From positions 1-33,253 of the forward strand of contig JAJRZC010000018.1 in the NCBI GenBank assembly GCA_024275435.1: DNA of 33,253 bases. Direction: 5' to 3'. Position numbers and translations under genes: made by a program. The notes beneath the pieces are model-generated. The model had not been told where the DNA came from. It did not search any database and saw only the letters and a program-made list of their open reading frames with translations. Below are positions 2,738-30,974 of this stretch, in pieces. The stretch's first letter is position 1. Each line of letters begins with the position of its first letter. The stretch comes from Alphaproteobacteria bacterium (GTDB taxonomy: Bacteria > Pseudomonadota > Alphaproteobacteria > Rhizobiales > Hyphomicrobiaceae).

Positions 2738-3346
2738 ATGTCCGTCGATGACGCGGCCTGGGGTGAGATACGCCGTTGCTATGTTGATGGTCGAGAGACT
2801 GTTGCTGATATAGCTGCGCGTTTTGGCGTATCCGTCGGGGCAATTCGCTATCGGGTGCGTCGTGATGGATGGTCACGGAGCGTTTCGCGCTCCGGATCGT
2901 CCAAGTGGAGCGGTGCCGGTGAGGGTGAAACCAAGAAACATGACAAGCGCGTAGATGCTGGGAAAAGGGTGCTGCGCCGGAACAGGAAGACCAAGCGGGC
3001 TCAGACGTTAATCGAGGATCCGCTTGCTGCACGTGAAGAAGTGGTTGGGCGGCTTTATCGGGCGATTTTGATGAAGCTGGAGGATCTGGAGGTGAGGATG
3101 GAACAGGGGCAGGATCTTAGTGCTGCAGACAGCGAAAGAGAAACGCGAGAGTTGAGCACCATGGTTCGGAGTTTTGAGAAAGTGACGGGGGTCGCCGCTG
3201 ACATCGCCAAAGAACGAAAACCAAAAGCTGGAGCACGGGCAACCGTCACGGCCGATGCGGAGCGCATGCGCGTTGAGATTGCGGAACGTCTTGAGCGTCT
3301 CCATTCGCAATGGGACCTTGAAGGACGATCTGGCCAGTCTGGGTGA
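2738..3346 (+). CDS. TerS-like DNA-packaging protein with N-terminal HTH (phage/GTA relic)
   Basis: About 202 residues. The N-terminus carries a helix-turn-helix typical of small terminase or Mu-type DNA-binding proteins, with TVADIAARFGVSVGAIRYRV at roughly residues 22-41. A basic, low-complexity linker follows, then a long charged, probably coiled-coil helical region from about 95 onward. A small terminase subunit recognises DNA and recruits the large subunit. The identification rests mainly on this architecture and on the large terminase directly downstream. The frame opens at a TTG at 2684; I chose the ATG at 2738 (MSVDDAAWGEIRR) because the HTH follows at the usual distance. The ribosome site is poor. 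The 3' end overlaps the next gene in another frame. It could also be an orphan HTH protein. Confidence 0.6.
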   Translation: MSVDDAAWGEIRRCYVDGRETVADIAARFGVSVGAIRYRVRRDGWSRSVSRSGSSKWSGAGEGETKKHDKRVDAGKRVLRRNRKTKRAQTLIEDPLAAREEVVGRLYRAILMKLEDLEVRMEQGQDLSAADSERETRELSTMVRSFEKVTGVAADIAKERKPKAGARATVTADAERMRVEIAERLERLHSQWDLEGRSGQSG

Positions 3347-4340
3347 GGCTGCTCTTTCAGCCTTGCTGAAAGATTGGCAGGTTTGGGCGCGTGATGATCA
3401 ACTTCCACCTCGCTTTACTCAAGCGGGCCAACCTTGGCGAACGTGGTTGATTTTAGGCGGACGTGGTGCCGGTAAGACGCGTGCGGGAGCTGAATGGATC
3501 AAGGCCAAAGCTTTAGGGTTGGAGCCAATAGCTTCTCAACCCGTCCGGCGGATTGCTTTGGTAGGAGAAACCATGGCCGAAGTCCGCCATGTGATGGTGG
3601 AGGGGCAATCTGGTTTATTGGCGGTTCATTGTGAAAAGGAGCGACCAAAATTTGAACCTTCCAAGGGCGTTGTTGTTTGGAAGAACGGTACAGTCGCGCA
3701 GTTGTTTTCTGCTGAAAATGCCGAGGGTTTGCGAGGGCCGCAATTTGAGGTGGCTTGGTGCGATGAGATTGCGAAATGGCGTCAAGGTGAACTTGCCTGG
3801 GACATGCTTCAGTTTGGCTTGAGGCTTGGGCATTGTCCGCAGCTTGTGGCTACGACGACACCAAGACCTGTGCCACTGCTAAAGCGGATTCTAGCGGATC
3901 CGATGAGTGTTGTCAGTAAAGCAGCCACTGAAATGAACGCGTGTAATCTTGCTCCCAGTTTTGTTTCAGAGGTGAAAAGGCGCTACGAGGGAACGGTACT
4001 TGGCAGGCAGGAATTGCAAGGTGAGATTATTGAAGATCAAAGCGGGAGCTTATGGCGTCGAGACTGGATTGAGAGTGCCCGCGTTGAGTGTGCTGCTGAT
4101 TTGAAAACTATTGTTGTGGGTGTAGACCCACCGGTGAGCGCCACGGAGCGTTCAGATGCTTGCGGAATAGTTGTGGCCGGTTGCGGCGATGATGGACAGG
4201 TTTTTGTGCTGGCGGACCGGACGGTTCAGGGACGTGAGCCCAATGTATGGGCGCGTGCGGCGGTTCGAGCCTATCACGAATTTGAAGCCGATCGGATTGT
4301 TGCTGAGATCAATCAGGGGGGTGACTGTCAATTCCTATGA
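3255..4340 (+). pseudogene. Large terminase (GTA/phage TerL), truncated in nuclease domain
   Basis: The ATPase-nuclease motor that packages DNA into capsids. Visible are Walker A GGRGAGKT at 68-75, Walker B WCDE with Asp170-Glu171, the ATTTPRPVPLLKRI coupling region, and the start of the RNase H-like nuclease with Asp291 in VGVDPP. It closely resembles RcGTA-type terminases. After the conserved AEINQGGD segment the frame runs into CQFL and a stop at 4338-4340, so only 361 residues remain, against roughly 420-460 usually. The rest of the nuclease domain, including later metal-binding acidic residues, is missing, so packaging activity is unlikely. ATG 3255 overlaps the TerS-like gene by 92 bases; a TTG at 3318 is an alternative start. 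No portal, protease or capsid gene follows. Confidence 0.85.
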
Positions 4341-4380
4341 ACGTTCACGACTGCTTGGGTTGCGCTGGGCGTCCTCTTCT

Positions 4381-5259
4381 ATGGGTGTGAGCAAGGAAGA
4401 TCGTTCCAGTGGAGCGTTATTTCAGCATGCTTTGAAGCATGTTCTCGAGATGGAAGGCGGTTATACGAATGATCCTGTTGATCCGGGTGGGCCGACGAAC
4501 AAGGGTATTACACTTGGTGTATTTGCTGCTTGGCGCAAGGTTGTTTTGAATGGAAAGACGCGTGCAAAGCTGTTAGCACAACTGAAAAAAATCCCAGATT
4601 CCACAGTGTCTGAAATCTATAAGAAGCGCTATTGGGACAAGGCTTTATGTGAGGCGTTTCCTTCTGGTATCGCGTTTATGCATTTTGATACGGCGGTTAA
4701 TCATGGTGTTGGCACAGCTGTTCGAATGCTACAGCAGGTCGTTGGTGTGGCGGTGGATGGCGAGGTGGGCCCCAATACGCGCCGTGCTGTGAATTCCCAA
4801 TCAGAAGATGAAATCTTGAAAACTTATGCGGACATTCGGCGGGCGCGGTATCGCTCGTTGAAACATTTTTGGCGATTTGGGCGGGGGTGGTTGCGTCGTG
4901 TGGATGTCACGCTTGAGCGGGCGCGTGAATTGGTTGGGAAGTCTGAGAAAAATGGTTCTGGTAAGAGGAGTAACGATATGATGGTGTCACGGAATCAAAC
5001 TGGTGTGGGTCAATCAAAATGGTGGGGTCAGTCTGTTACGATCTGGGGTGCATTGGTAACGGCTGCTGCCACAGTGGTGCCAGTACTTGGTCCTTTGGTG
5101 GGGATTGAAATTGGAGCTGATACTGTGCGCCAGATTGGAGCTGAGACTTTTACAGCTGTGCAAGCGGTTGTTGGACTTGCTGGAACTGCAATGACCATAT
5201 TTGGGCGTATTCGTGCCACGCAGACCTTGGAGCAGCGTTCTGTTTCACTGAAAATCTAG
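4381..5259 (+). CDS. GH108 endolysin with C-terminal holin-like membrane domain
   Basis: A 292-residue protein. The N-terminal part is a glycoside hydrolase 108 lysozyme (N-acetylmuramidase) with the catalytic EGGYTNDPVDPGGPTNKGIT segment, Glu25 being the likely acid. A C-terminal lobe, VGVAVDGEVGPNTRRAV, resembles PG_binding_3. After a polar linker near 190-205 comes a tail with two hydrophobic stretches, WGALVTAAATVVPVLGPLVG and a second ending MTIFGRIRATQ, similar to small phage holin-like proteins that carry a TIWG...YGR(V/I)KA pattern. The enzyme would cleave peptidoglycan and the tail would sit in the membrane. The start is probably ATG 4381, though its ribosome site is weak; the frame extends upstream into sequence overlapping the terminase. 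The lysozyme lies only 40 bases past the truncated terminase stop. Confidence 0.8.
   Translation: MGVSKEDRSSGALFQHALKHVLEMEGGYTNDPVDPGGPTNKGITLGVFAAWRKVVLNGKTRAKLLAQLKKIPDSTVSEIYKKRYWDKALCEAFPSGIAFMHFDTAVNHGVGTAVRMLQQVVGVAVDGEVGPNTRRAVNSQSEDEILKTYADIRRARYRSLKHFWRFGRGWLRRVDVTLERARELVGKSEKNGSGKRSNDMMVSRNQTGVGQSKWWGQSVTIWGALVTAAATVVPVLGPLVGIEIGADTVRQIGAETFTAVQAVVGLAGTAMTIFGRIRATQTLEQRSVSLKI
4978..5259 (+). CDS. Possible internally initiated holin-like protein nested in the endolysin gene
   Basis: Inside the endolysin frame, an ATG at 4978 (residue 200) is preceded by AGAGGAG at 4964-4970 with seven bases of spacing, a better ribosome site than that of the full-length gene. Initiation here would give a 93-residue protein of two hydrophobic segments and a basic end, which is the size and layout of a stand-alone phage holin-like protein. 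Either two formerly separate genes have fused in frame, or both products are made from one frame. Translation from this site is an inference. Confidence 0.4.
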   Translation: MMVSRNQTGVGQSKWWGQSVTIWGALVTAAATVVPVLGPLVGIEIGADTVRQIGAETFTAVQAVVGLAGTAMTIFGRIRATQTLEQRSVSLKI

Positions 5260-15200: not shown

Positions 15201-15881
15201 ATGCGTGTGCTGGTGATTGAAGACGATAGGGAAGCAGCCGGGTTCCTGCAAAGGGCGCTGAAGGAGAGTGGGCACACGGCTGAGTTGGCTTATGATGGTG
15301 AAATCGGACTGGCCATGGCGAGGGAAGATGATTTCGATGTTTTAATTGTTGATCGGATGTTGCCAAAGCGAGATGGTTTGAGTGTTATCCGTACGTTGCG
15401 TGATGAAGGTGACCAGACACCGGTTTTGATATTGTCGGCACTTGGTGAGGTTGATGACAGAGTAAAAGGACTTCGTGCTGGTGGAGATGATTATCTCACG
15501 AAACCTTATGCCTATAGCGAATTGCTTGCGCGCGTGGAGGCTCTTGCCCGTAGGACCGTTCCTGAAGAACATATGACACGGCTTGTTGTGGGAGATCTGG
15601 TGCTTGACCGGTTATCACATCGTGTGAGCCGCAATGGCCAGCCTATTCAATTGCAACCACGCGAATATCGGTTGCTGGAATACTTGATGAAACATGCAGG
15701 CCAGGTGGTTACGCGAACCATGCTGCTGGAGAATGTGTGGGACTATCACTTCGATCCTCAAACGAATGTTATTGACGTGCATGTTTCTCGATTGAGAGGA
15801 AAAATCGACAAAAATTTCGATCGACCATTACTGCAAACAGTTCGTGGCGCTGGGTACGTTATTCGTGATCAAGCTGAATAA
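15201..15881 (+). CDS. OmpR-family response regulator
   Basis: 226 residues. The receiver domain has Asp8-Asp9, phosphoacceptor Asp51 in LIVDRMLPKRDG, the switch Ser of LILSALGEVDDR and the Lys of YLTKPYAYSEL. The C-terminal winged-helix domain includes LQPREYRLLEYLMKHAGQVV, NVIDVHVSRLRGKID and QTVRGAGYVI. It belongs to the QseB/TctD-like branch of OmpR regulators. ATG 15201 sets the first beta-strand correctly, although the upstream TTTTAACC gives little ribosome site. It is followed by an overlapping kinase and then glnE, the order known downstream of degP in rhizobia. Targets are unknown; the position after degP suggests envelope-stress signalling, which is inference. Confidence 0.93.
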   Translation: MRVLVIEDDREAAGFLQRALKESGHTAELAYDGEIGLAMAREDDFDVLIVDRMLPKRDGLSVIRTLRDEGDQTPVLILSALGEVDDRVKGLRAGGDDYLTKPYAYSELLARVEALARRTVPEEHMTRLVVGDLVLDRLSHRVSRNGQPIQLQPREYRLLEYLMKHAGQVVTRTMLLENVWDYHFDPQTNVIDVHVSRLRGKIDKNFDRPLLQTVRGAGYVIRDQAE

Positions 15882-17403
15882 CATTTGGGAATCCTCCATA
15901 TCGACGACGGCTTTTCGAACCGCCGCAATCGTGGTGGCGGTTTTTACTTTGGTGGCTGCCGCTATCATGTGGTTTGTTTCGCAGCAGACAAACCTGGTTT
16001 TAACACAACAAGTCTTAGCGGCGCTTTCTTCCGAAACAGAACTACTTCGGGCTGAAGAACGCAGTTCCGGGTTGGTGGGCTTGCGTCGAGCCGTTGCTTT
16101 GCGTAGCAGGACGGCAGGTTCTGGGCTGTATTTTCTTGGAGATGAAAAAGGGACCCGTCTGGCTGGCAACCTGTCTGAGATTCCAAAAGAATTGCTGGAT
16201 CATCATAGGGGCGCTGTGTTTTCGTATCCCGTTCAACGTGCGGGATCCATGTCCGAGCAAGGGCGTTCTTCGGGGCCTGCGCGGCGCACTGCTGTGGGGG
16301 TATTGCTTTCATTTGGTGGTGCGCAACTTGTCGTCGCGCGTGATGTGGAAGATCAACGTGTGTTGTCTCATCGAATCCGTTTGGTCTCTCTCATCGGGTT
16401 TGGGTTACTTGGGATAGGTGGGCTTTTGGCAGGTTTGTTATTAAGCCGGCTTGTGCTGTCGCGGGTGAATGAGATTACTGAAGCCAGTCGGGCGATTATG
16501 GCGGGCAACCTATCTGAGAGACTTCCACGATCGGGTACGGGTGACGAGTTCGACCGCTTGGCGGGAAGCCTCAATGAGATGCTGGCGCGAATTGAACAGC
16601 TTATGCTTGGGCTGCGTGAGGTTTCCGATAATATAGCTCATGACCTGAAGACGCCTTTGAATCGATTGCGCAACCGTGCCGAGGAAGCGTTGCGAGATCC
16701 GCGAGGAGCTCAGGCGCAAAGGCAAGGTCTGGAACGAACGATCGAGGCGGCGGATGATCTTATTAAAACGTTCAATGCACTTTTGCTTATTGCCCGGCTG
16801 GAAGCTGGTGCCATAGATGAAACTCTCGAAGACACAGACTTGCGGGAAGTTGTTAGGGATGTCACGGAGCTTTACGAGCCGGTGGCTACAGATGCTGGTT
16901 TTAATCTAAGTGTCACGTTTTCTGAGGGGGGGGATTTGAATGTTCCTATTAACCGCCAACTCATTGGGCAGTCTATCGCAAATCTTCTGGAAAATGCCAT
17001 CAAGTATAGTGTGAGCGGACTGAAAAGTGATTTAAGAAAAACATCCGACTGCGTCGGCGGGGATGGTCAAGACGAGATGGTGTTGGCCGAGAAAGTCAGA
17101 AGCTATCGTGCGACTGCAAAAGATATTTCCGTTTCTGTAACACCCGTTGAAAAGGGCGTTGAGATTTCGGTGGGGGATCGTGGTGCAGGCATTGCGCCTG
17201 AAGACCGAGAACGCGTGTTGCGCCGTTTTGTTCGTTTGGAAAAGAGCCGCACAGCTCCAGGAACAGGACTTGGTTTGAGCCTCGTGGCGGCGGTGGCGCG
17301 ACTTCATGGAGGTAAGGTTCGGCTAGAGGACAATGAACCAGGGTTGCGGGTTGTGGTTTTTTTGCCCAGTGGTAAGGGGCGTTCAGGATCGCAGCAGGTT
17401 TAA
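15865..17403 (+). CDS. Membrane sensor histidine kinase partnered with the upstream regulator
   Basis: About 512 residues. TM1 is near residues 15-35, a periplasmic region of roughly 120 residues follows, and TM2 (LIGFGLLGIGGLLAGLLL) is near 170. A HAMP domain follows with EASRAIMAGNLSERLPRSG. The dimerisation helix has His259 in NIAHDLKTPLNRLRNR. The ATPase has an N-box NLLENAIKYS, a G1 box DRGAGI and a G2 box GTGLGLS. Between N-box and G1 is an insert of roughly 35-40 residues, about 383-421. The start is uncertain: GTG 15865 overlaps the regulator stop by 17 bases, and an in-frame GTG at 15844 is possible. The overlap implies coupled expression with the regulator. Confidence 0.9.
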   Translation: MIKLNNIWESSISTTAFRTAAIVVAVFTLVAAAIMWFVSQQTNLVLTQQVLAALSSETELLRAEERSSGLVGLRRAVALRSRTAGSGLYFLGDEKGTRLAGNLSEIPKELLDHHRGAVFSYPVQRAGSMSEQGRSSGPARRTAVGVLLSFGGAQLVVARDVEDQRVLSHRIRLVSLIGFGLLGIGGLLAGLLLSRLVLSRVNEITEASRAIMAGNLSERLPRSGTGDEFDRLAGSLNEMLARIEQLMLGLREVSDNIAHDLKTPLNRLRNRAEEALRDPRGAQAQRQGLERTIEAADDLIKTFNALLLIARLEAGAIDETLEDTDLREVVRDVTELYEPVATDAGFNLSVTFSEGGDLNVPINRQLIGQSIANLLENAIKYSVSGLKSDLRKTSDCVGGDGQDEMVLAEKVRSYRATAKDISVSVTPVEKGVEISVGDRGAGIAPEDRERVLRRFVRLEKSRTAPGTGLGLSLVAAVARLHGGKVRLEDNEPGLRVVVFLPSGKGRSGSQQV

Positions 17404-17521: not shown

Positions 17522-20512
17522 ATGGCTATTCAGACACAAGACACCGTAAAACAGCTGTTTGAATTGGTAAGCTCTGCTCCACTTTTACGTGATGGTGTGA
17601 GGGCAGGCCTTGATGATCCTGAAGTGATATTTCTTCGCGAAGAGGCACACAAGGGCGGCCTTGAAGATCTTGCAAAGGCTCTCTTTGATCCACAAACATG
17701 CGCGTTGGTTGGTGGAGTGTTACATGGCTCTCCCTATTTATCTGGACTTATCAAAACAGATCTAAAGCGATTTCAACGTGTGCTTTGCTCACCACCGCTC
17801 ATCTTGTATGAAGATCTTATCCAATCCGTTTCCCATTTGGCACATGACGCTCGCAAAATAGAAGATGCGATGCGGGGCCTTCGTGTGTTTAAGAATGAAA
17901 TGGCGTTGTTGCTTGCCTTAGCTGATTTGGGCGGCATCTGGCCGGTGATGAATATCACGGCCAAGCTAAGTGAGACTGCGCAAACAGCTTTGCAGACAGC
18001 TGTTGGTTTCTTATTCCAGCAGGCGATCTTAAAAGGTGATTGGCTTGTTGAGGGTGATGCGCAATTCGCTGACCCTTTAAAAGTCGCCGGGTCGTCTGGT
18101 TATATTGTTCTGGGTATGGGAAAATTTGGTGCCTATGAACTGAATTATTCCAGCGATATTGATCTCATTGTTTTCTTTGACCCTGACTTGGCCTCACTGC
18201 GCGAGGGGATTGAGGCGCATCGCTTTTTTGTAAAAATGACCCGTGACCTGGTTCGACTTATGGATGAGCGTACGGCCGATGGGTATGTGTTTCGGACCGA
18301 TCTTCGCCTTAGGCCTGATCCCGGTGCGACGCAAGTTGCGCTACCGGTTGCTGCTGCCATGGTTTACTATGAAAGCTTTGGTCAGAACTGGGAACGTGCG
18401 GCCTTAATCAAGGCGCGGCCTGTTGCGGGTGATTTATCCGCTGGCGCAGCCATTTTAAAAGAAATTCAGCCATTCGTGTGGAGGAAGTATCTCGATTTTG
18501 CTGCCATTGCCGACATTCAAGCGATGAAACGTCAGATCCACGCGTTCCATGGTTTTGGCGAGATTGCAGTTGCGGGTCATAATATCAAAATTGGTCTGGG
18601 TGGTATTCGAGAGATAGAATTCTTTGTACAAACGCAACAACTCATAGCAGGTGGACGTCAGCGGGACCTTCGAACGCGCGGGACGCTGGAAACCCTCGAT
18701 GGTCTTGTTGAGCGTGGCTGGATAAAGCCTGATGTACGCGACGAACTCATCAAGGCTTACAAGTTTTTGCGTACCATTGAACATCGCATCCAGATGGTTC
18801 ACGACGAACAAACACAACAACTTCCTGACACCGAAGAGCGCCTGGAGGCGTTCGCTAACTTTTGCGGTTATAAAGATGCAAAAGCGTTCGGGGATGACCT
18901 GCTTAAAGTGTTGAACCTTGTGCAGGAACGCTTTCGGGGACTGTTTAAGGATGAGCCTTCACCTACGGCAAGCGGGCGGAATCTTGTTTTTGCCGGGCAA
19001 GAGGATGACCCGGCGACCGTGGCGGCTTTGAAGGACTTTGGATTTTCAAGACCTGAATCTGTTATTTCCACAGTTCGAAGCTGGCATCATGGGCGCTATG
19101 CTGCCGTGCGTTCGACAGCTTCGCGAGAACAATTGACGGCTGTGCAGGGTGTGTTGATTGAGGCTCTTTCGGAAACAGCAGACCCCGATATGGCGTTTGT
19201 GAGTTTTGATCGTTTCCTGGCATCCTTGCCTACCGGGGTTCAATTGTTTTCTCTACTTCGATCCAAGCCTGGTCTGTTGCGACTGGTGGCTGATATCATG
19301 GGTAGCGCTCCGCGACTGGCTTCAATTTTATCACGCAGGCACAGACTTCTGGATGCGGTTATTGACCCTCGCACTTTTGATGAACTGCCCAATGAAAAGG
19401 TTCTTACAGAACTGGTTGAATTGGAACTGTCACGAGCTGCTTCCTTCGAGGAGGCATTGGATAGCGCACGTATTATCGGGGGCGAGCAATCCTTTCTTAT
19501 CGGTGTAAGAGTGCTCTCTGGTACGATCAATGCTGATCAAGCTGGGGCGGCATATGCGGTACTTGCGACCAGTCTGATTAACGTATTGCAGGAGCGCACG
19601 GAAAAGGAACTTGAAAAATCATTTGGCCGTGTTCCTGGCGGTGGTGCCGTTGTCATTGCAATGGGAAAGCTTGGCGGACGTGAAATGACAGCTTCGTCGG
19701 ATATTGATATCATTGTTGTTTATGATCATCCAGATGATGCTGTTGCCACCGATGGGGCGCGGCCGCTTTCAACAAGTCAATATTTTACGCGTTTCACACA
19801 ACGACTTATTACAGCTTTGGCGGCGCCGACGGCTGAGGGCAGTCTTTATGAAGTGGATATGCGGTTGCGCCCTTCCGGGCAGCAGGGTCCGGTTGCCACG
19901 CGATTATCGAGCTTTGTGAAATATCAGGCGGATGAAGCATGGACGTGGGAACATATGGCATTGTTGCGCGCCCGCGTCATCAGTGGTCCGTCTGAATTAC
20001 GATTGCGCGTTGAAGATGCGATTCGCCACGCGCTTGAACGCAAACGGGATGCCGACCTTATCGCTCAAGATGTCCGCGAGATGCGTTCGCGCATCGCTGC
20101 TGAGAAAGGTTCGGAATCCATATGGGATTTAAAGCAGGTTCGTGGTGGTCTCGTCGATCTTGAGTTCATCGCTCAATACTTGCAACTGATACATGTTCAT
20201 GATCATCCACAGGTGCTTGATCAAAATACATTGCGTGCGTTTCAGAAGTTGCGAGATCTGGGTCTCTTGGAAAGTAAATATGCGGATGTTTTGATACCGG
20301 CGACACGTCTCATACATAACCTGACGCAGGTTTTGCGCATCTGCATAACGGAGAGGTTTGAATCTGAGAGTGCGCCGCAGGGCTTGAAGGACCTTTTAGC
20401 GAGAGCTGGTGCCATGCCTTCGTTTGAAGTTCTTGAGGATACATTGCGAGAAACCTTAAAGCAGGTGTTTGATGCTTTTGAGGAGATCGTTAAACCGACG
20501 CGTCCTGTTTAG
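17522..20512 (+). CDS. glnE: Bifunctional glutamine synthetase adenylyltransferase/deadenylase GlnE
   Basis: 996 residues, full family length. GlnE adds AMP to glutamine synthetase or removes it in response to PII proteins and glutamine. Both nucleotidyltransferase domains are intact. The N-terminal deadenylase has GMGKFGAYELNYSSDIDLI with Asp212 and Asp214. The C-terminal adenylyltransferase has AMGKLGGREMTASSDIDII with Asp727 and Asp729. Conserved flanks include LRLRPDPGATQVALP, GLGGIREIEFFVQ, MRLRPSGQQGPVATRL and QVRGGLVDLEFI. ATG 17522 follows a purine-rich GGGGGCGCG. It is convergent with the next gene, with only ten bases between the stops. It belongs to the rhizobial cycHJKL-degP-regulator-kinase-glnE order. 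Confidence 0.98.
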   Translation: MAIQTQDTVKQLFELVSSAPLLRDGVRAGLDDPEVIFLREEAHKGGLEDLAKALFDPQTCALVGGVLHGSPYLSGLIKTDLKRFQRVLCSPPLILYEDLIQSVSHLAHDARKIEDAMRGLRVFKNEMALLLALADLGGIWPVMNITAKLSETAQTALQTAVGFLFQQAILKGDWLVEGDAQFADPLKVAGSSGYIVLGMGKFGAYELNYSSDIDLIVFFDPDLASLREGIEAHRFFVKMTRDLVRLMDERTADGYVFRTDLRLRPDPGATQVALPVAAAMVYYESFGQNWERAALIKARPVAGDLSAGAAILKEIQPFVWRKYLDFAAIADIQAMKRQIHAFHGFGEIAVAGHNIKIGLGGIREIEFFVQTQQLIAGGRQRDLRTRGTLETLDGLVERGWIKPDVRDELIKAYKFLRTIEHRIQMVHDEQTQQLPDTEERLEAFANFCGYKDAKAFGDDLLKVLNLVQERFRGLFKDEPSPTASGRNLVFAGQEDDPATVAALKDFGFSRPESVISTVRSWHHGRYAAVRSTASREQLTAVQGVLIEALSETADPDMAFVSFDRFLASLPTGVQLFSLLRSKPGLLRLVADIMGSAPRLASILSRRHRLLDAVIDPRTFDELPNEKVLTELVELELSRAASFEEALDSARIIGGEQSFLIGVRVLSGTINADQAGAAYAVLATSLINVLQERTEKELEKSFGRVPGGGAVVIAMGKLGGREMTASSDIDIIVVYDHPDDAVATDGARPLSTSQYFTRFTQRLITALAAPTAEGSLYEVDMRLRPSGQQGPVATRLSSFVKYQADEAWTWEHMALLRARVISGPSELRLRVEDAIRHALERKRDADLIAQDVREMRSRIAAEKGSESIWDLKQVRGGLVDLEFIAQYLQLIHVHDHPQVLDQNTLRAFQKLRDLGLLESKYADVLIPATRLIHNLTQVLRICITERFESESAPQGLKDLLARAGAMPSFEVLEDTLRETLKQVFDAFEEIVKPTRPV

Positions 20513-20522
20513 CTTGGTCTTG

Positions 20523-21743
20523 TCAGGCCGCCATGTCTTCAACTGTGATTTCTGTTGAGAGTGATGGTTTGGTCTGAGTGTTGGGTTCACTTCTGAGAGG
20601 GGTTTTAAAGAAGTCGTGCTGGCCGACCAGCTCAAGAATGGTTTTTGCCCGCCAGCCATTTCTATCATCACTTAAAACCATGAGGGTTGTGCCATGGAGG
20701 CTCAGAAGGGTTCGCGCTACACACAACGGCAGGGTGTCTGTTAGGAATGGGCGGGTGCTGGATTTTGTGCTGATTTCGATCTCGACGTGGTGATTATCGG
20801 AAATTGCACGAACGAACAGCTGGGAATTGTTTTCCGTATAGTTTTTTGCCTCGCACATGAGATTGAGAAGCACCTGTCTTAAGGCCTGGGCTTCTCCCAA
20901 AACTTCTATTTCTGGTGCGACATCAATTTGGAGTGTGATTTTTCTCTCTTGTGCTTGAGTTGCAACAAACTCCCAGGCGTTCAGAATGAGGGGTTTGAGA
21001 GCAATGGGTTTATGTGCTGGTTCGCCTGATGGTTTGTTGTTTAAGGCAGAAGTCATGGCCAACGTGTCTTCGGCAGACTTTAAAAGTTCCAAGCCGCAGT
21101 CCTGGATGTGACGTGCATATTCTTGGTACCGTGGTGAACCCAATGGGCCGTATGCTTCTTGCTGCATGAGGTCTGAAAAGCCGATGACAGCGTTTAAGGG
21201 GGTTCTCAGGTCGTGACTGAGTCGGGCCATCAGATCTGCCCAGGCGTGGTCTTTTGGATCAAGACCACGAGGGAGCACGGCGTTTGGGGCTGCCAGTGGA
21301 GCGATTTGGGCATGAACAGGCGCCGGGTTACGTCGCATCGTGCCGGTTTTTTTGATTGGTGGGAAATTTGAGAGTGTCTGATGCCTTGGCTTGGATAAAT
21401 TGCATATCTGGTGAGTGAGAAGATGATCATTCCCGCTTTGGGCTGGAACGGGAATGATCTTTTCTTCTTTGGAAGCTTGTTGCGGGTGGTTGATGAGAGA
21501 GAGAATAAGAACCAGTGCTGTCGTTACAACAAGGACGATCAATACTGGGGAACTCGTAATGACAGGCCAGAGAGATGCAAGAATGAAGACGTGCAAGGTC
21601 ATAGCGAGAAACTGCAAACGATGAGACTGGGGCACTGCCCAGAAGGTATTACTATTGGCCAGGGGTGCGCTTGCACCTGCACCGTTCACACCAACCTTTT
21701 GGCAAAGCTCCGCTCTCGAGCCGCCGGACCATGCCCGCGTCAT
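20523..21743 (-). CDS. Degenerate membrane histidine kinase, ATPase motifs lost
   Basis: 406 residues. Two adjacent membrane helices are near residues 46-85 (LAMTLHVFILASLWPVITS and VLIVLVVTTALVLILSLI), followed by a long disordered-looking linker. A well-kept dimerisation and phosphoacceptor helix has His177 in RLSHDLRTPLNAVIGFSDLM. The C-terminal ATPase-like domain is eroded: the N-box position reads NLMCEAKNYTENN, without the usual NAxKF/Y pattern, and no DxGxG or GxGLGL box follows. Autophosphorylation is therefore doubtful; it may be a phosphatase, a scaffold or a decaying kinase. No sensory PAS or HAMP domain is evident. ATG 21743 is used; it lies 150 bases downstream of pepN on the same strand. 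The target is unknown. Confidence 0.8.
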   Translation of the reverse strand: MTRAWSGGSRAELCQKVGVNGAGASAPLANSNTFWAVPQSHRLQFLAMTLHVFILASLWPVITSSPVLIVLVVTTALVLILSLINHPQQASKEEKIIPVPAQSGNDHLLTHQICNLSKPRHQTLSNFPPIKKTGTMRRNPAPVHAQIAPLAAPNAVLPRGLDPKDHAWADLMARLSHDLRTPLNAVIGFSDLMQQEAYGPLGSPRYQEYARHIQDCGLELLKSAEDTLAMTSALNNKPSGEPAHKPIALKPLILNAWEFVATQAQERKITLQIDVAPEIEVLGEAQALRQVLLNLMCEAKNYTENNSQLFVRAISDNHHVEIEISTKSSTRPFLTDTLPLCVARTLLSLHGTTLMVLSDDRNGWRAKTILELVGQHDFFKTPLRSEPNTQTKPSLSTEITVEDMAA

Positions 21744-21863: not shown

Positions 21864-21899
21864 GGTTGAGCGAGGATTTTAAATGGACTGTGCTCAACC
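21864..21899 (-). terminator. Probable pepN terminator hairpin
   Basis: Perfect 8-base arms GGTTGAGC (21864-21871) and GCTCAACC (21892-21899), with a 20-base AT-rich loop. The arm on the pepN side contains the pepN stop codon. On the minus strand the stem is followed by ATTTATTCT, a modest T-rich tail, so termination may be partial and allow some read-through into the kinase gene. Confidence 0.45.
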
Positions 21900-24545
21900 C
21901 TCTAGAGTTTTGTTAATGATTTCAAATACATCTCTGGATAGATCGGGTTTTTTTGCGATACGGGTCAAGGCTCGTTTGGCCTTGGCGCGTCTTTTTGGTT
22001 CCAAATTACGCCAACTGCGCAGCGCACTGAGCAAGCGTGCGGCGATCTGCGGATTGAATGGGTCAATTTTCAGAATTTGATCGGCCAGGAATTCATAACC
22101 GGCACCATCAGGTCTGTTGAATTGTAGCGGGTTGGACATGACAAAGCTGCCTATCAGTGCGCGCACCTTATTGGGGGTGGTGAGCGAGAAGCTATGATGG
22201 TCGGTTAAAGCTTTGACCTCATCAAGTGCTTGAGGGCGCGGAGATTGGGCCTGGGCGGCAAACCAACTGTCCATAACGATGTGGTCGTGTTGCCAACGCT
22301 CGAAGAATTGATCAAGTGCCTTTTTGCGGTGTGGTGTTTCATGGGCCGCGAGAAGGAACAGAGCGTTGGCCTCGTCTGTCATGTTCGATGCTTTTTCAAA
22401 ATGATTCATGGTCCGGTCAAAATCGGTCTTAGTTTTTCGGGAGGCCAGTAACCAGAGGATGACATTGCGCAGCGCGCGCCGACCGGCGGGGCGCGCGTTT
22501 GGGGAGAAACGGCCTTTGGAAGCTAGGTCATCGTAGAGCTGTTCCAATTGTTCTGAGAGATGTTTTGCGATTGTCCTGGACAACTGGCCATGCGCCTCGC
22601 AAATATTTGTATAATCGACGTTAGAGCCGATTTCTCGAGCAATGTCTGCTGGTGAGGGGAGCTTGAGGAGTTCAGCTTTGAAGGCTTCCTCTAATTTGTC
22701 GTCGGCAAGGGCTGTTTGTAAACCACGCGCGAAACTGGCGCCACGACTGGAGCGTTTATTTTGTTCGCGTGCTTTTACAAGTTGAATGATGGTGCGCGTG
22801 GCGAATGTATTGGCTGCCTGCCATCGATTGAAGGGGTCGTTGTCATGGGCAATGAGGAAGGCGAGGTCTTTATCGGATAGATCAAGCTTTAAATTCACGG
22901 GGGCTGAAAACCCACGCAGGAGCGAAGGCGTTGGGCGCGAGGGTACATTCTTGAAGTGGAAGGTTTGTTTGGCTTGAGTGATGTGGACAACGCTGCTTGG
23001 GACCTTGCCACCTTTTTCCAAAAATAAAGGTATGTCGTTGCCGGATTTGTCGATCAGTCCCAGTCGCAACGGTATGTGCAAAGGTTTTTGAGTGTTTTTT
23101 ACCGTAGGAGAGTTTTGCGATTGGGTGACTTCCAGTTTGGCGGTCTTGGAGCGCTTATCATAGCTCAGGACACAGTTGAGTTCCGGTGTTCCGATTTGTT
23201 CGTACCAGAGGTGAAATTGGGTCAGGTCTGTGTTGGTGGCGTCTTCAAAGCATTTGAGAAAGTTTTCGATGGTGGTGGCTTCGCCATCGTGGCGCTCGAA
23301 ATAGAGGTCCATCCCCGCCTTGAAGTCTTTTGGCCCCAGGATTGTTGCGATCATCCGGACGAGTTCGGCACCCTTTTCGTAGATCGTGGTTGTGTAGAAA
23401 TTGTTGATCTCGATATAGGTGTTGGGGCGCACGGGGTGCGCAAGGGGGCCGGCATCTTCAGGGAATTGATGCGATTTGAGACGGCGTACGTCGGCGATGC
23501 GCTGGACAGGGCGTGATCTCAAGTCGGCGGAGAATTCCTGATCGCGGTAGACGGTCAAACCTTCTTTCAAGCAAAGCTGAAACCAGTCGCGACAGGTGAT
23601 GCGATTGCCTGTCCAGTTGTGGAAGTATTCGTGAGCCACAACGCTTTCGATGGATTGGTACATCAAATCGGTGGCGGTTTTTGCAGAGGCGAGAATCAAG
23701 CGGTCATTGAAAATATTCAACCCCTTGTTTTCCATCGCGCCCATGTTGAAGTCTGAGACGGCAACAATATTGAAAACGTCCAGGTCGTATTCGCGCCCGA
23801 AACGTTTTTCATCCCACCGCATGGATTTTTTCAAGGACTCCATAGCCCATCCTGCGCGATCCTCTTTGCCGTGCTCGACGTAAATTGCCAAATCAACATC
23901 ACGGCCACTGGCGGTTGTGAATTTAGAGGCGATGGAGGAGAGATCCCCTCCGACCAGGGCAAACAGATAGCAGGGCTTGGGGTGAGGGTCGTGCCAGACA
24001 GTGTAGTGACGCGCTCCTCTATCGAGGTTGCCACGTTCTCTTAGGTTTCCGTTCGACAGCAGAACGGGAGCTTCTTCCGGGTCGGCTTCAATGCGCACTG
24101 TGTAGGTAGACAGAATGTCGGGGCGATCAAGGAAATAGGTTATACGCCGGAAACCTTGTGCTTCACATTGTGTGCAATAGACGCCACGAGATTGGTACAG
24201 CCCTTGAAGGGCTTTGTTAGCAGTGGGGTTTATGATCGTGGTGATGTCGAGATTAAATGGACCTTGAGGAGGTTTGCGCAAAGTGAGGGTTGTTTTGGAA
24301 AGCTTGTAATCGGACCTGGCGAGTTCACGCCCATTGAGCAGGATTTTTTCTAGTTTGAGATTTTCTCCATCAAGCTTGAGCGGAGATGTTCTTTGGGAGG
24401 TACGCGGGTTTGGGCGAACTTTAAGTTTTGCTCTTACGCGTGTTTCTTGTTGATTGAGTTTGAAGTCGAGATCAACCTTGTCGATCAGATAATCAGGTGG
24501 GGTATAATCTTTAAGACGTGTCGGGCGGGGCGTGTCTGTCTTCAT
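21894..24545 (-). CDS. pepN: Aminopeptidase N (M1 family)
   Basis: 883 residues, typical of the bacterial PepN type. This zinc exopeptidase removes N-terminal residues from peptides in the cytoplasm. The substrate-recognition motif MGAMENKG is present. The zinc site is complete: His305-Glu306-x-x-His309 in VVAHEYFHNWTGN, with the third ligand Glu328 in LCLKEGLTVYRDQE. The N-terminal DYTPPDYLIDKVDLDF and the C-terminal helical domain with NPLQFNRPDGAGYEFLAD are characteristic. ATG 24545 is preceded by an AGAAG ribosome site. Its promoter must lie in the divergent region shared with dusA. Confidence 0.98.
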   Translation of the reverse strand: MKTDTPRPTRLKDYTPPDYLIDKVDLDFKLNQQETRVRAKLKVRPNPRTSQRTSPLKLDGENLKLEKILLNGRELARSDYKLSKTTLTLRKPPQGPFNLDITTIINPTANKALQGLYQSRGVYCTQCEAQGFRRITYFLDRPDILSTYTVRIEADPEEAPVLLSNGNLRERGNLDRGARHYTVWHDPHPKPCYLFALVGGDLSSIASKFTTASGRDVDLAIYVEHGKEDRAGWAMESLKKSMRWDEKRFGREYDLDVFNIVAVSDFNMGAMENKGLNIFNDRLILASAKTATDLMYQSIESVVAHEYFHNWTGNRITCRDWFQLCLKEGLTVYRDQEFSADLRSRPVQRIADVRRLKSHQFPEDAGPLAHPVRPNTYIEINNFYTTTIYEKGAELVRMIATILGPKDFKAGMDLYFERHDGEATTIENFLKCFEDATNTDLTQFHLWYEQIGTPELNCVLSYDKRSKTAKLEVTQSQNSPTVKNTQKPLHIPLRLGLIDKSGNDIPLFLEKGGKVPSSVVHITQAKQTFHFKNVPSRPTPSLLRGFSAPVNLKLDLSDKDLAFLIAHDNDPFNRWQAANTFATRTIIQLVKAREQNKRSSRGASFARGLQTALADDKLEEAFKAELLKLPSPADIAREIGSNVDYTNICEAHGQLSRTIAKHLSEQLEQLYDDLASKGRFSPNARPAGRRALRNVILWLLASRKTKTDFDRTMNHFEKASNMTDEANALFLLAAHETPHRKKALDQFFERWQHDHIVMDSWFAAQAQSPRPQALDEVKALTDHHSFSLTTPNKVRALIGSFVMSNPLQFNRPDGAGYEFLADQILKIDPFNPQIAARLLSALRSWRNLEPKRRAKAKRALTRIAKKPDLSRDVFEIINKTLEG

Positions 24546-27638: not shown

Positions 27639-28214
27639 TCATTTTTGCAAAATCAGGTCGCCTTGGCGCATTTCCACACGAGCAAGACGACCCAAAAAAG
27701 ACATTCCCAGAAGTGTGACATGAAGGGCTCCGGGTTCAGATACGGAAGCGCGAATGTTGCGAAGTGTAATATCGCCGATGCGAATGCTTCGGATTGTTAC
27801 GGGGGCTGAGCGGGCAATGCCATTGGCTGTTCGTGAGCGGGCTGTGAAATCGGACCTTGACAGGTAAATACCGGCGCGACGGGCGTCTTCATAGGTCAGA
27901 GCCACAAGGGTTGCACCCGTATCGACAAGAACGTTTATGCGTTGATTGTTGATTTTTGCAACAGTGCTGTAGTGCCCCCCACGGCCTCGACGTATTTTTA
28001 CCTGTCCGTAGGATTGAGGTTGGCTGCTTTCGGTATTTCGTTGATGTTTGAGTGTCGCCTTATCTTCGAACTGCTCAGAATGGTTGGGAAGGTCCAGATA
28101 TGCGCTGGTAAATGCTCTGATATCTTCGAAATGCATAATTGCAAAGGCTGCTGCAATGGTCAGAAATACCCATGAGAAGGCGTCTATGAGCAGGTTTTTT
28201 GTACCAATTGACAT
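27639..28214 (-). CDS. Membrane-anchored retropepsin-like aspartic protease (TIGR02281 type), copy 1
   Basis: 191 residues. One N-terminal membrane helix (AFSWVFLTIAAAFAIMHF) is followed by a polar linker and a single retropepsin-like domain. The active Asp98 lies in INVLVDTGATLVALTYEDARRAGI, and VTIRSIRIGDITLRNI and LLGMSFLGRLARVEMRQGDL complete the fold. Clan AA enzymes of this size work as homodimers because each chain gives one aspartate. The catalytic domain is most likely periplasmic. ATG 28214 lies 57 bases after the end of its upstream paralogue. The substrate is unknown. Confidence 0.88.
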   Translation of the reverse strand: MSIGTKNLLIDAFSWVFLTIAAAFAIMHFEDIRAFTSAYLDLPNHSEQFEDKATLKHQRNTESSQPQSYGQVKIRRGRGGHYSTVAKINNQRINVLVDTGATLVALTYEDARRAGIYLSRSDFTARSRTANGIARSAPVTIRSIRIGDITLRNIRASVSEPGALHVTLLGMSFLGRLARVEMRQGDLILQK

Positions 28215-28271
28215 TTATGCGTGGCCCGACACAAGTGGTTTGTCGTTTGACTTGGGCCGGATGCTGAGGGG

Positions 28272-28976
28272 CTACTGGCGCAGAGTCAAAAATTCTCCAG
28301 AGAACTCATAAGAGCGCAAACGTCTTAAAAAACTCATACCCAGCAAGTTTTCATTAAGATTTCCGGGCTTGGCAACCAACGCGTCGACATCTTCAAGATG
28401 AATGGGGCCGATGGAAAGGGATTTAAGGCGTATAGGTGCGGTATAGGTGGTTCCATTGGCTGTCTGAACGGCGATGGTGTAGGAGAGGTTTTTGGTGTCG
28501 ATGCCGACGCGGGCAGCGTCAGCTGGTTTGAGGACCACTGTGCTTGCCCCGGTGTCAACCAGGAAAGAGACGGCAACGCCGTCGATGGTTCCGCGCGCGG
28601 TGAAGTGGTCGTCGGAGCGCCGCCGGATTTTAATTGCGATAGGACCGCTGTTATCGTTTGAGACCCTTATGCCTTGGCCGGGTGGCGCGAGTTCGGCTGT
28701 CACGCGGTTGGTGATGAACTGGATATCTTCGCGAAAGCTGTAGCCGATAATGAGGGCGAGGCCGATAGCGAGCCAAATTCCCAAATCCCGGATGCTTTTT
28801 TTCATGCGGCCTTGATTGCCGCTCATCAAAAGAAGTGCATAAAGGCTCATAATGACGCCGGCTGCTATCAGCCCCCATCTGTCCCAGCCGCCTGTCACCA
28901 TCGTGCTGTCCATGCCGGTCAACAGATAGAAAAGTGCTGTAAATGCGGCTAGTAAAATCAAGAGCCAAACCAGCAT
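28272..28976 (-). CDS. Membrane-anchored retropepsin-like aspartic protease (TIGR02281 type), copy 2
   Basis: 234 residues. Three predicted membrane helices come first: LVWLLILLAAFTALFYLL, LIAAGVIMSLYALLLM and LGIWLAIGLALIIGYSF. A retropepsin-like domain follows with Asp141 in VSFLVDTGASTVVLKPADAARVGI, and LLGMSFLRRLRSYEFSGEFLTLRQ at the C-terminus. It shares the domain layout of copy 1 but has two more helices, so it is a diverged tandem paralogue. ATG 28976 is one base after the DUF1289 stop, so the two are probably co-translated. A heterodimer with copy 1 is conceivable, because each chain supplies one catalytic Asp; that is speculation. Confidence 0.88.
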   Translation of the reverse strand: MLVWLLILLAAFTALFYLLTGMDSTMVTGGWDRWGLIAAGVIMSLYALLLMSGNQGRMKKSIRDLGIWLAIGLALIIGYSFREDIQFITNRVTAELAPPGQGIRVSNDNSGPIAIKIRRRSDDHFTARGTIDGVAVSFLVDTGASTVVLKPADAARVGIDTKNLSYTIAVQTANGTTYTAPIRLKSLSIGPIHLEDVDALVAKPGNLNENLLGMSFLRRLRSYEFSGEFLTLRQ

Positions 28977-29429: not shown

Positions 29430-30974
29430 CTAGTGTGTTGAAACGCGATGGCGTTCGGCTCCTAAAGTTTGCAAAGGAGGAAGGGAGACAAGAACCCGAG
29501 CTTTGGGGAAAGCGACGATTGCCTCTGTTCCTTTGCGTAACTCCGAACGCAATTCAAAGGTCCCGCCGTGTAATTCCACGAGGCTTTTTACGATGGGTAA
29601 GCCTAGGCCCGTTCCACCTTCTGCATTTTCGTGGGCCAGAGAACCCTGGCCGAAGGCCTGCAGGACTTTCGAAATTTCATCTTTGGGTATGCCAGGCCCT
29701 GTATCGCGAATGGAAAGAATTTGACCTCCATCACTTGTGGCTGAAACAGTGATAAGTATCCGGCCGTTTTTAGGTGTGAACTTCAAAGCATTGGATAGGA
29801 GATTGAGACACATTTGCCGGCAGGCACGCTCATCAGCCCATATTTGGGGTAGGTTCATGTCGAAGTCTTCGACCACTTCCAGACCTTTGCTTTTTGCTCG
29901 CAACTTGAGAAGTCTGCGGCAATCATCGGCGATATCGGCCAAGTGCAAGGGCTCTTCCTGAAGCTCGTAACTTTCAGCTTCGATACGGGAAAGATCAAGA
30001 ATTTCGTTGATGAGTTTAAGAAGGTGGGTTCCGCTTTCGTGGATGTTTTCAGTGTATTCCTTGTAGGTTTTATTGGGCATCTTACCCAGGATTTCCGTTT
30101 TCATAACTTCGGAAAATCCCATGATGGCATTCAAGGGTGTGCGCAGTTCATGGCTCATGGTTGCAAGGAAGCGCGACTTCGCATCATTGGCCGCTTCGGC
30201 GCGTGCACGGGCGGAATCAGCTATTGACTTTTGTTCTTCCAGTTCGGCGATGAGGTCGTCTTTTTGGGCGCGGTATTCGCACATGGCTAATGCCGTGGCG
30301 TTTATTCCGCAAGCCAGGACAAAGAAGTAGATATGGACCCCGACTGCCATGGCAGCCAATGCCATGGAGAATGGATCTCCATAGACAACTAGGCGGATTA
30401 CGACTGCCAGTGTCACAGGGATCGTGCCGGCGTGCAGTATGGGAATGACGGAAGAAGCAAACATCATGCGGATCGCCAGGATGACGATCAATGTTGCAAA
30501 TAAGAATACCTGCGATGAGAACACGAAATTTTCGACGTTTATGGTATCGCCTGACATTCCCACCAGAGCAAAGCCTGCCCAAGTGACCCCGTTTAAGGAT
30601 TCAGCCAAAATGAATCTACGGCGCCAGGTCTTTATGTCGTTCTTTGAATTGGGTGAAGCTAGAAAACGTCGCGCCTGTTCGAGCAGTAAGACCTTGGAGG
30701 CAATGACCATCAATAGCCAAAGAATGGCTTCCCAAGCTGGAGCCCAAAACAGTGAAGCCAGAGAAAAGATAATTGATAAAGCCGGCATGGTGAATGCTGC
30801 GCCCATTTCATTGCGCGCAAACATGGTCAGTAATTCATGCTCGAATTCGGGTTTAATCTGAGTTCCATTGATGAGCTTTTCGCGCGCGTCCTTTATCTCT
30901 TGCGACGTCCGTTTGCGCTGGGCCTGTTGGGTCCGGCGGCGGGTGATTTCATCTGTTCTCGCGCTTTTATCCAT
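29430..30974 (-). CDS. Multi-helix sensor histidine kinase of the DivJ/PleC type
   Basis: 514 residues. A basic cytoplasmic N-terminus of about 55 residues is followed by about six membrane helices (roughly 60-235), a coiled coil with AELEEQKSIADSARARAEAAND, and a kinase core. His275 lies in TMSHELRTPLNAIMGFSEVM, and EILGKMPNKTYKEYTENIHESG resembles the DivJ/PleC/PdhS dimerisation helix. The ATPase is intact: NLLSNALKFT, DTGPGI and GTGLGLPIVK. DivJ/PleC kinases act on the single-domain regulator DivK to control division and polarity in alphaproteobacteria. The lack of a PAS domain and the helical N-terminus recall DivJ, but I cannot tell the paralogues apart, so no symbol is given. It starts at ATG 30974 with GGAA close by. 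Confidence 0.9.
   Translation of the reverse strand: MDKSARTDEITRRRTQQAQRKRTSQEIKDAREKLINGTQIKPEFEHELLTMFARNEMGAAFTMPALSIIFSLASLFWAPAWEAILWLLMVIASKVLLLEQARRFLASPNSKNDIKTWRRRFILAESLNGVTWAGFALVGMSGDTINVENFVFSSQVFLFATLIVILAIRMMFASSVIPILHAGTIPVTLAVVIRLVVYGDPFSMALAAMAVGVHIYFFVLACGINATALAMCEYRAQKDDLIAELEEQKSIADSARARAEAANDAKSRFLATMSHELRTPLNAIMGFSEVMKTEILGKMPNKTYKEYTENIHESGTHLLKLINEILDLSRIEAESYELQEEPLHLADIADDCRRLLKLRAKSKGLEVVEDFDMNLPQIWADERACRQMCLNLLSNALKFTPKNGRILITVSATSDGGQILSIRDTGPGIPKDEISKVLQAFGQGSLAHENAEGGTGLGLPIVKSLVELHGGTFELRSELRKGTEAIVAFPKARVLVSLPPLQTLGAERHRVSTH

Follow-up and report, generated by a model that had tools for sequence, protein, structure and literature searches.

The open reading frame at 20523..21743 on the minus strand of the window (the whole stretch of DNA analysed, 33,253 nucleotides from an alphaproteobacterium of the family Hyphomicrobiaceae) encodes a degenerate PleC-type orthologue of 406 amino acids, with an ATG start and syntenic orthologues in other genomes. 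Judged from its motifs it is no normal autokinase, lacking the N-box asparagine, the G1 box, the ATP lid and the G2 box. The leading explanation, held at about even confidence, is that of a kinase-dead PleC which would drain phosphate from DivK~P, a fixed kinase-minus/phosphatase-plus (K-P+) form of the enzyme. Kinase-dead relatives of histidine kinases, namely DivL, PhyT, ChpT and Spo0B, are already known; a PleC without ATPase, fixed over a family, was not described in the literature searched, which comprised papers outside subscription.

Architecture of the stripped protein

The N-terminus, MTRAWSGGSRAE (21708..21743, minus strand), is similar to the start of the family consensus, MA.T.SA..RG. 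Among canonical kinases, L054 starts with the akin MAKADAWSAPGG, and others, such as L055, are unlike it. Hydropathy predicts two transmembrane (TM) helices at residues 43-59 (21567..21617, minus) and 68-84 (21492..21542, minus), with an inter-helix loop of 8 residues versus 138-153 in six canonical orthologues; all six of the latter have two TM helices (45-72 and 200-242). The periplasmic sensor segment and both PAS domains are gone according to Pfam and hydropathy. From the full PleC layout (TM, periplasmic domain, TM, PAS, PAS) the two TM helices alone remain, which is why the name 'degenerate PleC' is used rather than PleC in full.

Pfam recognizes HisKA alone in this frame (41.2 bits, cut-off 26.9, E 1.7e-10), at residues 169-231 (21051..21239, minus), where AlphaFold2 places the helices of the DHp domain. 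As the initial annotation had proposed, His177 (21213..21215, minus) is embedded in an intact phosphoacceptor motif, SHDLRTPLNAVIGF, and the DHp is of the DivJ/PleC dimerization type; its sequence type, GPLG..RY.EYA..I, is shared with PleC, as is the pair of TM helices. Thr181 (21201..21203, minus) stands at H+4, the place of the phosphatase Thr or Asn of HisKA proteins (PMC3510030), and both His177 and this Thr are invariant in 29/29 stripped sequences.

Residues 245-372 (20628..21011, minus) make up a pseudo-CA domain, an ATPase fold without ATP lid by hhalign, AlphaFold2 and VIA-align. Alignment with canonical kinases upholds the annotation's description of an atypical N-box and missing G1 and G2 boxes, and the three boxes expected of a functional histidine kinase are not found in the frame. 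The N-box remnant NLMCEAKNYT (residues 294-303; 20835..20864, minus) aligns with the canonical NLLSNAVKFT, its Asn being replaced by Glu298; at this position, 18 aligned rows of the stripped form hold Glu (13), Asp (3), Thr (1) or Ser (1), and none holds Asn. At residues 325-337 (20733..20771, minus), the DTGIGI (G1) box, the ATP lid and the GSGLGL (G2) box are all absent, the G2 glycines being replaced. HATPase_c is missing from the Pfam matches of the frame at a limit of E 10, with HMMER filters dropping most matches above ~0.1; the same scan gives HATPase_c at 3.2e-27 in the kinase at 29430-30974.

The origin of the C-terminal part is indicated by profile comparison. A profile of 29 stripped sequences aligns with one of 96 canonical CA domains (28 from named loci and 68 from the PepN census described below) over 137 columns (hhalign, 99.7%), and one stripped relative, L044, has a weak HATPase_c match (E 5.7e-4, under the cut-off). 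By these profiles, the residues C-terminal to the DHp are the former ATPase domain. The closest solved structures by sequence are the GacS kinase (E 3.6e-12), RetS (4.4e-11) and DivL (7.3e-8). The structure prediction that the annotation had called for, made with AlphaFold2 from aligned sequences of the window and the named loci (pTM 0.66, mean pLDDT 78.5), shows a DHp helix pair together with the sheet and helices of an ATPase fold that lacks the lid. VIA-align, used as a re-scoring of Foldseek's list only, gives the VanSA CA as best structural match (Z 19.4, 1.7 Å, 128 residues) and the DivL DHp-CA as best whole-core match (Z 18.6, 3.9 Å, 201 residues). RetS, a Pseudomonas regulator built on a histidine kinase core, is likewise a close fold match; the structures 7n0e (RetS) and 4q20 (DivL) both rank near the top of the structural matches.

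Locus, distribution and history of the loss

The gene lies tail to tail with glnE (17522..20512, plus strand; NF010706 over cut-off; synteny), its stop 10 bp from the glnE end, and 150 bp downstream of the end of pepN (21894..24545, minus strand; TIGR02414 over cut-off; synteny), so that coordinates and NCBIfam matches agree with the arrangement first annotated. From 60 relatives, 33 match regions were followed, of which 28 hold a stripped histidine kinase beside pepN and five hold other kinases. All 28 loci adjoin pepN, and in 20 of them the fragment also carries glnE; 27 come from as many genomes of the window's own family (f1) and one from G052 of family f18. The G2 pattern and an intact N-box pattern are lacking in every one of the 28 proteins; a D.G.G pattern occurs in three, away from the G1 place as judged by eye. 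Two TM helices are predicted by hydropathy in 22, one in two and none in four. Recent decay or a sequencing artefact is ruled out, as the boxes are missing in all 28 relatives read (L048 being without any CA).

The neighbourhood has further features of its own. In several family members, the window excepted, a small cassette whose products resemble an ECF sigma factor, a membrane anti-sigma factor and a periplasmic Spy/CnrX-like protein (names from reading translations) lies between glnE and the pseudokinase (L021:5099-7030, L022:5789-7650, L025:8613-10474, L033:8267-10175, L030:8570-11207). A response regulator and a kinase adjoining glnE at 15201-17403 of the window are kept with glnE across the family, the regulator being 75-85% identical, and the same pair is also found in L054, Mesorhizobium. 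At 3255-5259 there is a likely phage remnant, terminase large subunit-like by eye and without NCBIfam match; an overlapping frame has a holin-associated muramidase domain at 68.5 bits against a cut-off of 240.

In many other alphaproteobacteria the same place is occupied by a complete kinase. Among the best 80 of 544 loci, 28 named loci have a histidine kinase with pepN and/or glnE, including those of Mesorhizobium, Rhizobium, Bartonella, Roseibium, Rhodoplanes and Phenylobacterium; by regular expression, G2 is present in 28/28 of these kinases and both G1 and G2 in 26/28. A census independent of the kinase took PepN as its starting point and found it in 91 of 101 genomes of the order; 80 of the regions downstream of it were read, G000 (the window's genome), G007, G010, G022 and G052 (already known) and six others being set aside. 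A kinase with G1 and G2 follows pepN in 65/80 regions and 36/47 families, with a length of 453-862 amino acids (at least 600 in 61/65). Four of the 80 regions, from families f5 and f42, match the regular expression for only one of the two boxes, three have the stripped form (G043, G050, G059), G088 has a glnE-side kinase only, and no histidine kinase was seen in seven, five of which are fragments below 3.5 kb. Outside the window's family, the stripped form is found in one genome in each of four families. The pepN-locus kinases L261, L264 and L266 (f5) and L265 (f42) are divergent, with an H-box ending in RTPLNHIIG and an altered G2 box in f5 or an altered G1 box in f42, possibly by independent drift of PleC.

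The canonical gene at the pepN-glnE place is presumably PleC, as its layout suggests. PAS-PAS-HisKA-HATPase was found in 4/4 canonical orthologues scanned, and the layout of PleC as described is the same (PMC10790692). The stripped gene keeps the position between pepN and glnE found for the PleC-layout kinases of many alphaproteobacteria and is in this respect like PleC, the PdhS-family kinase of Caulobacter; it differs by the loss of the periplasmic sensor, the PAS domains, the N, G1 and G2 boxes and the ATP lid. The DHp profile of PleC is best in 28/32 cases, with margins of a few bits over other PdhS-type DHps, the DivJ and DivL profiles being built from four and five sequences, all of the window's family. 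Because the DHp profiles separate PleC weakly from PdhS-type kinases, the identification rests on synteny and layout; no paper naming both pleC and glnE was found in the literature search. A full PleC-type form is present in a genome (L100) of the Hyphomonadaceae, the family of H. neptunium. In this stalked budding bacterium PleC has been reported to phosphorylate DivK in vitro (PMC7200025).

Within the window's family, 84/103 genomes, the window's included, have a frame of 293-504 amino acids that matches a profile of the stripped form with E 3.7e-57 or better (the protein itself was read in part of them). One stop codon each occurs in 13/84 matches and is the gene's own end in the three checked (G001, G015, G035). 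Among the 19 genomes without profile match, G008 and G031 have a stripped gene and G023 a DHp-only gene; in nine of the remaining 16, examined downstream of pepN, a PleC-type DHp is absent (two fragments being short, 571 and 2096 bases). In five of these (G005, G011, G012, G028, G033), glnE is on the same fragment, and the gene is therefore missing there. The loci L313, L314, L315, L318 and L319 belong to family members without PleC-type gene between pepN and glnE, in which DivK and a DivJ-type kinase are present. DHp-only forms are 140 (G023), 133 (G050) and 297 (G059) amino acids long. In these three relatives (loci L048, L198 and L199) no CA match was obtained in any frame of the fetched stretch, which rules out a frameshift hiding the CA. 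The genes thus form a series from the full PleC-type kinase to the stripped form, the DHp alone and absence.

All 29 stripped genomes group to one side of a single branch (SH-aLRT 91, by a quick method) in a PepN tree with 58 rows, and the stripped state requires one change, versus a mean of 17.6 after shuffling. The tree uses 12 of the 28 named loci and omits stripped loci with partial pepN (L034, L036, L042) and family members without the gene; of its five unlabelled rows, two (L280, unknown, and L281, without PleC-type gene) lie within the stripped side. Given this single branch, one ancient loss suffices for all sampled stripped cases.

The retained parts have not drifted evenly. For the DHp, mean pairwise identity is 0.586 among the 29 stripped sequences and 0.695 among the 96 canonical ones; for the pseudo-CA and the canonical CA the figures are 0.240 and 0.436. 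Seven close pairs give dN/dS values of 0.03-0.24 in the DHp (computable for 6/7), 0.17-0.62 in the pseudo-CA (7/7) and 0.28-0.68 in the N-terminus, all rough values as dS is near saturation. The DHp of the stripped form has been under purifying selection since the loss. Along with the His and the Thr at +4, R+3, P+5, L+6 and N+7 are invariant in 29/29 sequences; Asp or Glu stands at H+1 in 28/29 (Gln in L052), and a stretch of helix 2, LLKSAEDTLA, is conserved specifically in this clade. The DHp-only L048, L198 and L199, excluded from this table, all retain His, R+3 and T+4, with Ala for P+5 in L048 and Ala at +1 and Thr for N+7 in L198.

The annotation had reserved the possibility of a simple decay event should orthologues prove to have full boxes. 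Distant syntenic orthologues do have G1 and G2 (26/28), but near relatives share the loss, the boxes being missing in 28/28 read; a loss shared by near relatives, lying on one branch and leaving a DHp under purifying selection, is no simple decay event.

Likely partners in the DivK pathway

The annotation placed the pseudokinase, as a possibility, in the same relay as the kinase at 29430..30974 (minus strand; HK29430), and an intact DivJ-type kinase and DivK are both present in the genome. HK29430, a PdhS-family kinase, is the top PleC/DivJ-type kinase of the window's genome, with intact boxes. The NCBIfam DivJ model matches it below the curated cut-off, so that 'DivJ-type' is a label and not a membership. 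It is the likely partner of the pseudokinase in a DivK relay, and the shared-relay proposal is made more specific by the finding that the pseudokinase gene stands at the place of its relatives' PleC-type kinase. Two adjacent retropepsin-like genes are found at 27639-28976, next to HK29430. The one at 28272-28976 scores above the cut-off of TIGR02281 (clan AA aspartic protease), and a related kinase in L121 has one similar gene as its neighbour.

Other members of the pathway were found in the genomes searched. DivK is present in the window's genome and five relatives (6/6), 77-79% identical to the DivK query (79% in the window's genome), and ChpT in the same 6/6 genomes. The window's genome and 4/4 relatives listed as 100% complete each have a DivJ-type kinase as well as a protein of DivL type, whose H-box carries Tyr in place of His. 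A putative second receiver, in a frame of ~465 amino acids, adjoins divK in G000 and G059, as pleD would. No co-loss of DivK with PleC was seen, DivK being present in 14/15 genomes and missed in G043, which is 84% complete. Several genera of the window's family keep DivK and a DivJ-type kinase with the PleC-type gene absent at the locus, from which it follows that its function is dispensable in those genera. CtrA boxes (TTAAN7TTAA, one mismatch) are not enriched, six being found versus 10.2 expected.

A second intact PleC elsewhere in the genome was considered and none was recognized, by H-box region and length, in G020, G007, G022 and G030 (each 100% complete). The best PleC-like matches inspected, L165-L183 (19 of 47 places at E 1e-15 or better), are DivJ-type, DivL-type, a soluble kinase of ~300 amino acids, hybrid kinases and others. 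A separate kinase type (L143, L182, L183), with LAHEL(K/R)TP.SAIA and a PdhS-like G...NE(K/R)Y..Y..DIH helix, occurs in the window's genome and in relatives and is a possible further DivK-pathway kinase.

Candidate functions of a PleC without ATPase

In the PleC-type orthologue of the Hyphomicrobium-containing family, the sensor in the periplasm, the two PAS domains and the half of the CA that binds ATP have been lost, and the DHp has been retained under purifying selection as dimer and docking module, with His177 and the phosphatase Thr181. For a K-P+ PleC, the following course can be envisaged. The DivJ-type kinase HK29430 would make DivK~P, on which the stripped PleC may dock and from which it may take off the phosphoryl group, thereby keeping DivK off in one cell compartment and allowing DivL, CckA, ChpT and CtrA to stay on. 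The pseudo-CA, which presumably binds no ATP, would position the DHp or help the phosphatase reaction.

Experimental studies of other kinases describe what such an enzyme needs. In NtrB and EnvZ the DHp can act as a phosphatase by itself, with the CA increasing the activity, and HisKA phosphatases require the T/N residue, PleC being one of the cases cited (PMC3510030); a DHp construct of HK853 also has phosphatase activity (PMC5727384). Removal of the PAS domains leaves PleC able to dephosphorylate DivK, and it is the phosphatase of PleC, not its kinase, on which motility and pili depend (PMC10790692). PleC(F778L) is a K-P+ allele (PMC7010744), and in PdhS2 the T275A mutant (K+P-) failed in complementation, unlike H271A (K-P+) (PMC7003649). 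A fixed DivK~P phosphatase is favoured because the stripped PleC keeps the parts that those studies require. It resembles the laboratory alleles PleC(F778L) and PdhS2(H271A) in having lost the kinase and kept Thr at H+4 (PMC7010744, PMC7003649), but differs from these point mutants in that a natural, domain-scale loss has been fixed in a lineage with the His retained.

The strongest point against the phosphatase is the acidic residue kept after the His, together with the precedent of PhyT described below. In CrdS, as reported, this residue is needed for the kinase and not for the phosphatase (PMC3510030), and its retention hints that His177 is still phosphorylated, favouring phosphotransfer. 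A histidine phosphotransferase like PhyT, ChpT or Spo0B, in which His177 would take the phosphoryl group from, for example, DivK~P and hand it to, for example, PleD without hydrolysis, is a possible role, if clearly less probable, and both the invariant His177 and the acidic residue in 28/29 agree with it. PhyT/PhyP, ChpT and Spo0B also combine a DHp with intact His and a catalytic domain without ATP binding (PMC5898713, PMC3433190), ChpT having an ATPase-like domain without normal lid and no ATP bound in crystals (PMC3433190). PhyT sets a precedent: this membrane-anchored protein, thought to derive from a degenerate histidine kinase, initially passed for a phosphatase, until it was found to act as a phosphotransferase that receives its phosphate from a single-domain regulator (PMC5898713). 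These proteins, however, belong to other pathways or are other genes; the window frame has no match to the ChpT family PF10090 (HPTransfase) in Pfam at E up to 10, where filters drop weak matches, and a PF10090 ChpT is located elsewhere in G000. EnvZ may offer a further parallel, its N347 being the N-box Asn. The acidic N-box substitution of the stripped form recalls EnvZ-N347D, a kinase-minus/phosphatase-plus variant with reverse transfer (cited in PMC5727384), and the putative pleD-like receiver after divK in G000 and G059 would provide an acceptor. Against phosphotransfer stand a pathway that already has ChpT, a phosphatase Thr that is invariant too, and the known role of PleC as DivK phosphatase (PMC10790692).

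A broader version, tentative and rather doubtful, sees the PleC half of the DivJ/PleC polarity switch of Hyphomicrobium-like bacteria, now a membrane pseudokinase, as an ATP-independent phosphate hub in which His177 would accept phosphate from DivK~P and either pass it on to PleD or another receiver or drain it, with DivJ as sole charger and with later lineages reduced to a bare DHp or to loss. If true, it would provide a natural series from a bifunctional kinase to a minimal phosphotransfer module.

Regulation by binding alone, in the manner of DivL or RetS, is unlikely. The protein would then be a scaffold or dominant partner without enzymatic activity, acting on DivK by binding it or pairing in mixed dimers with a genuine kinase of the PdhS family; the DHp as best-kept part and the fold matches to RetS and DivL are consistent with this. 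DivL, which also belongs to the DivK pathway and is a DHp-CA pseudokinase of PdhS type, needs no phosphorylated DHp for its action, and its CA is dispensable, but it has lost the His (replaced by Tyr) and keeps the N, G1, F and G2 boxes (PMC4211667), the reverse of the stripped PleC, in which the His is kept and the ATP-site motifs are lost. The window frame thus shows neither the Tyr or Ala for His nor the kept motifs of a DivL, the Tyr-type DivL of the genome being separate, and an invariant His and Thr are not predicted by a role in binding only. Least probable of all is a slowly decaying relic with little or no function left, for which the missing sensor, PAS and ATPase, the poorly conserved pseudo-CA (mean identity 0.24), the series onward to the DHp alone (G023, G050, G059) and the absence in other genera could be cited, against a DHp with low dN/dS and 59% mean identity over 29 sequences, its clade-specific helix 2 residues and a long frame matching the stripped profile in 84/103 genomes of the family.

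The favoured phosphatase reading meets a second objection, to its necessity, in that DivK and a DivJ-type kinase persist where the gene is absent. Its interest lies in the biology of asymmetric division, where a PleC-type enzyme helps to set which daughter cell swims and which settles, and where the need for the PleC kinase has so far been studied via laboratory K-P+ alleles; the name 'Hyphomicrobium' is absent from the main text of a 2010 survey of alphaproteobacterial cell-cycle genes (PMC2877005). Nature appears to have run the K-P+ experiment once and to have preserved its outcome in most of a family with stalked budding bacteria among its members. The family offers a ready test of whether a bifunctional histidine kinase can have its kinase half separated from its phosphatase half, and makes it possible to ask why the pseudo-ATPase domain is retained and how one kinase can serve to rebuild a polarity switch.
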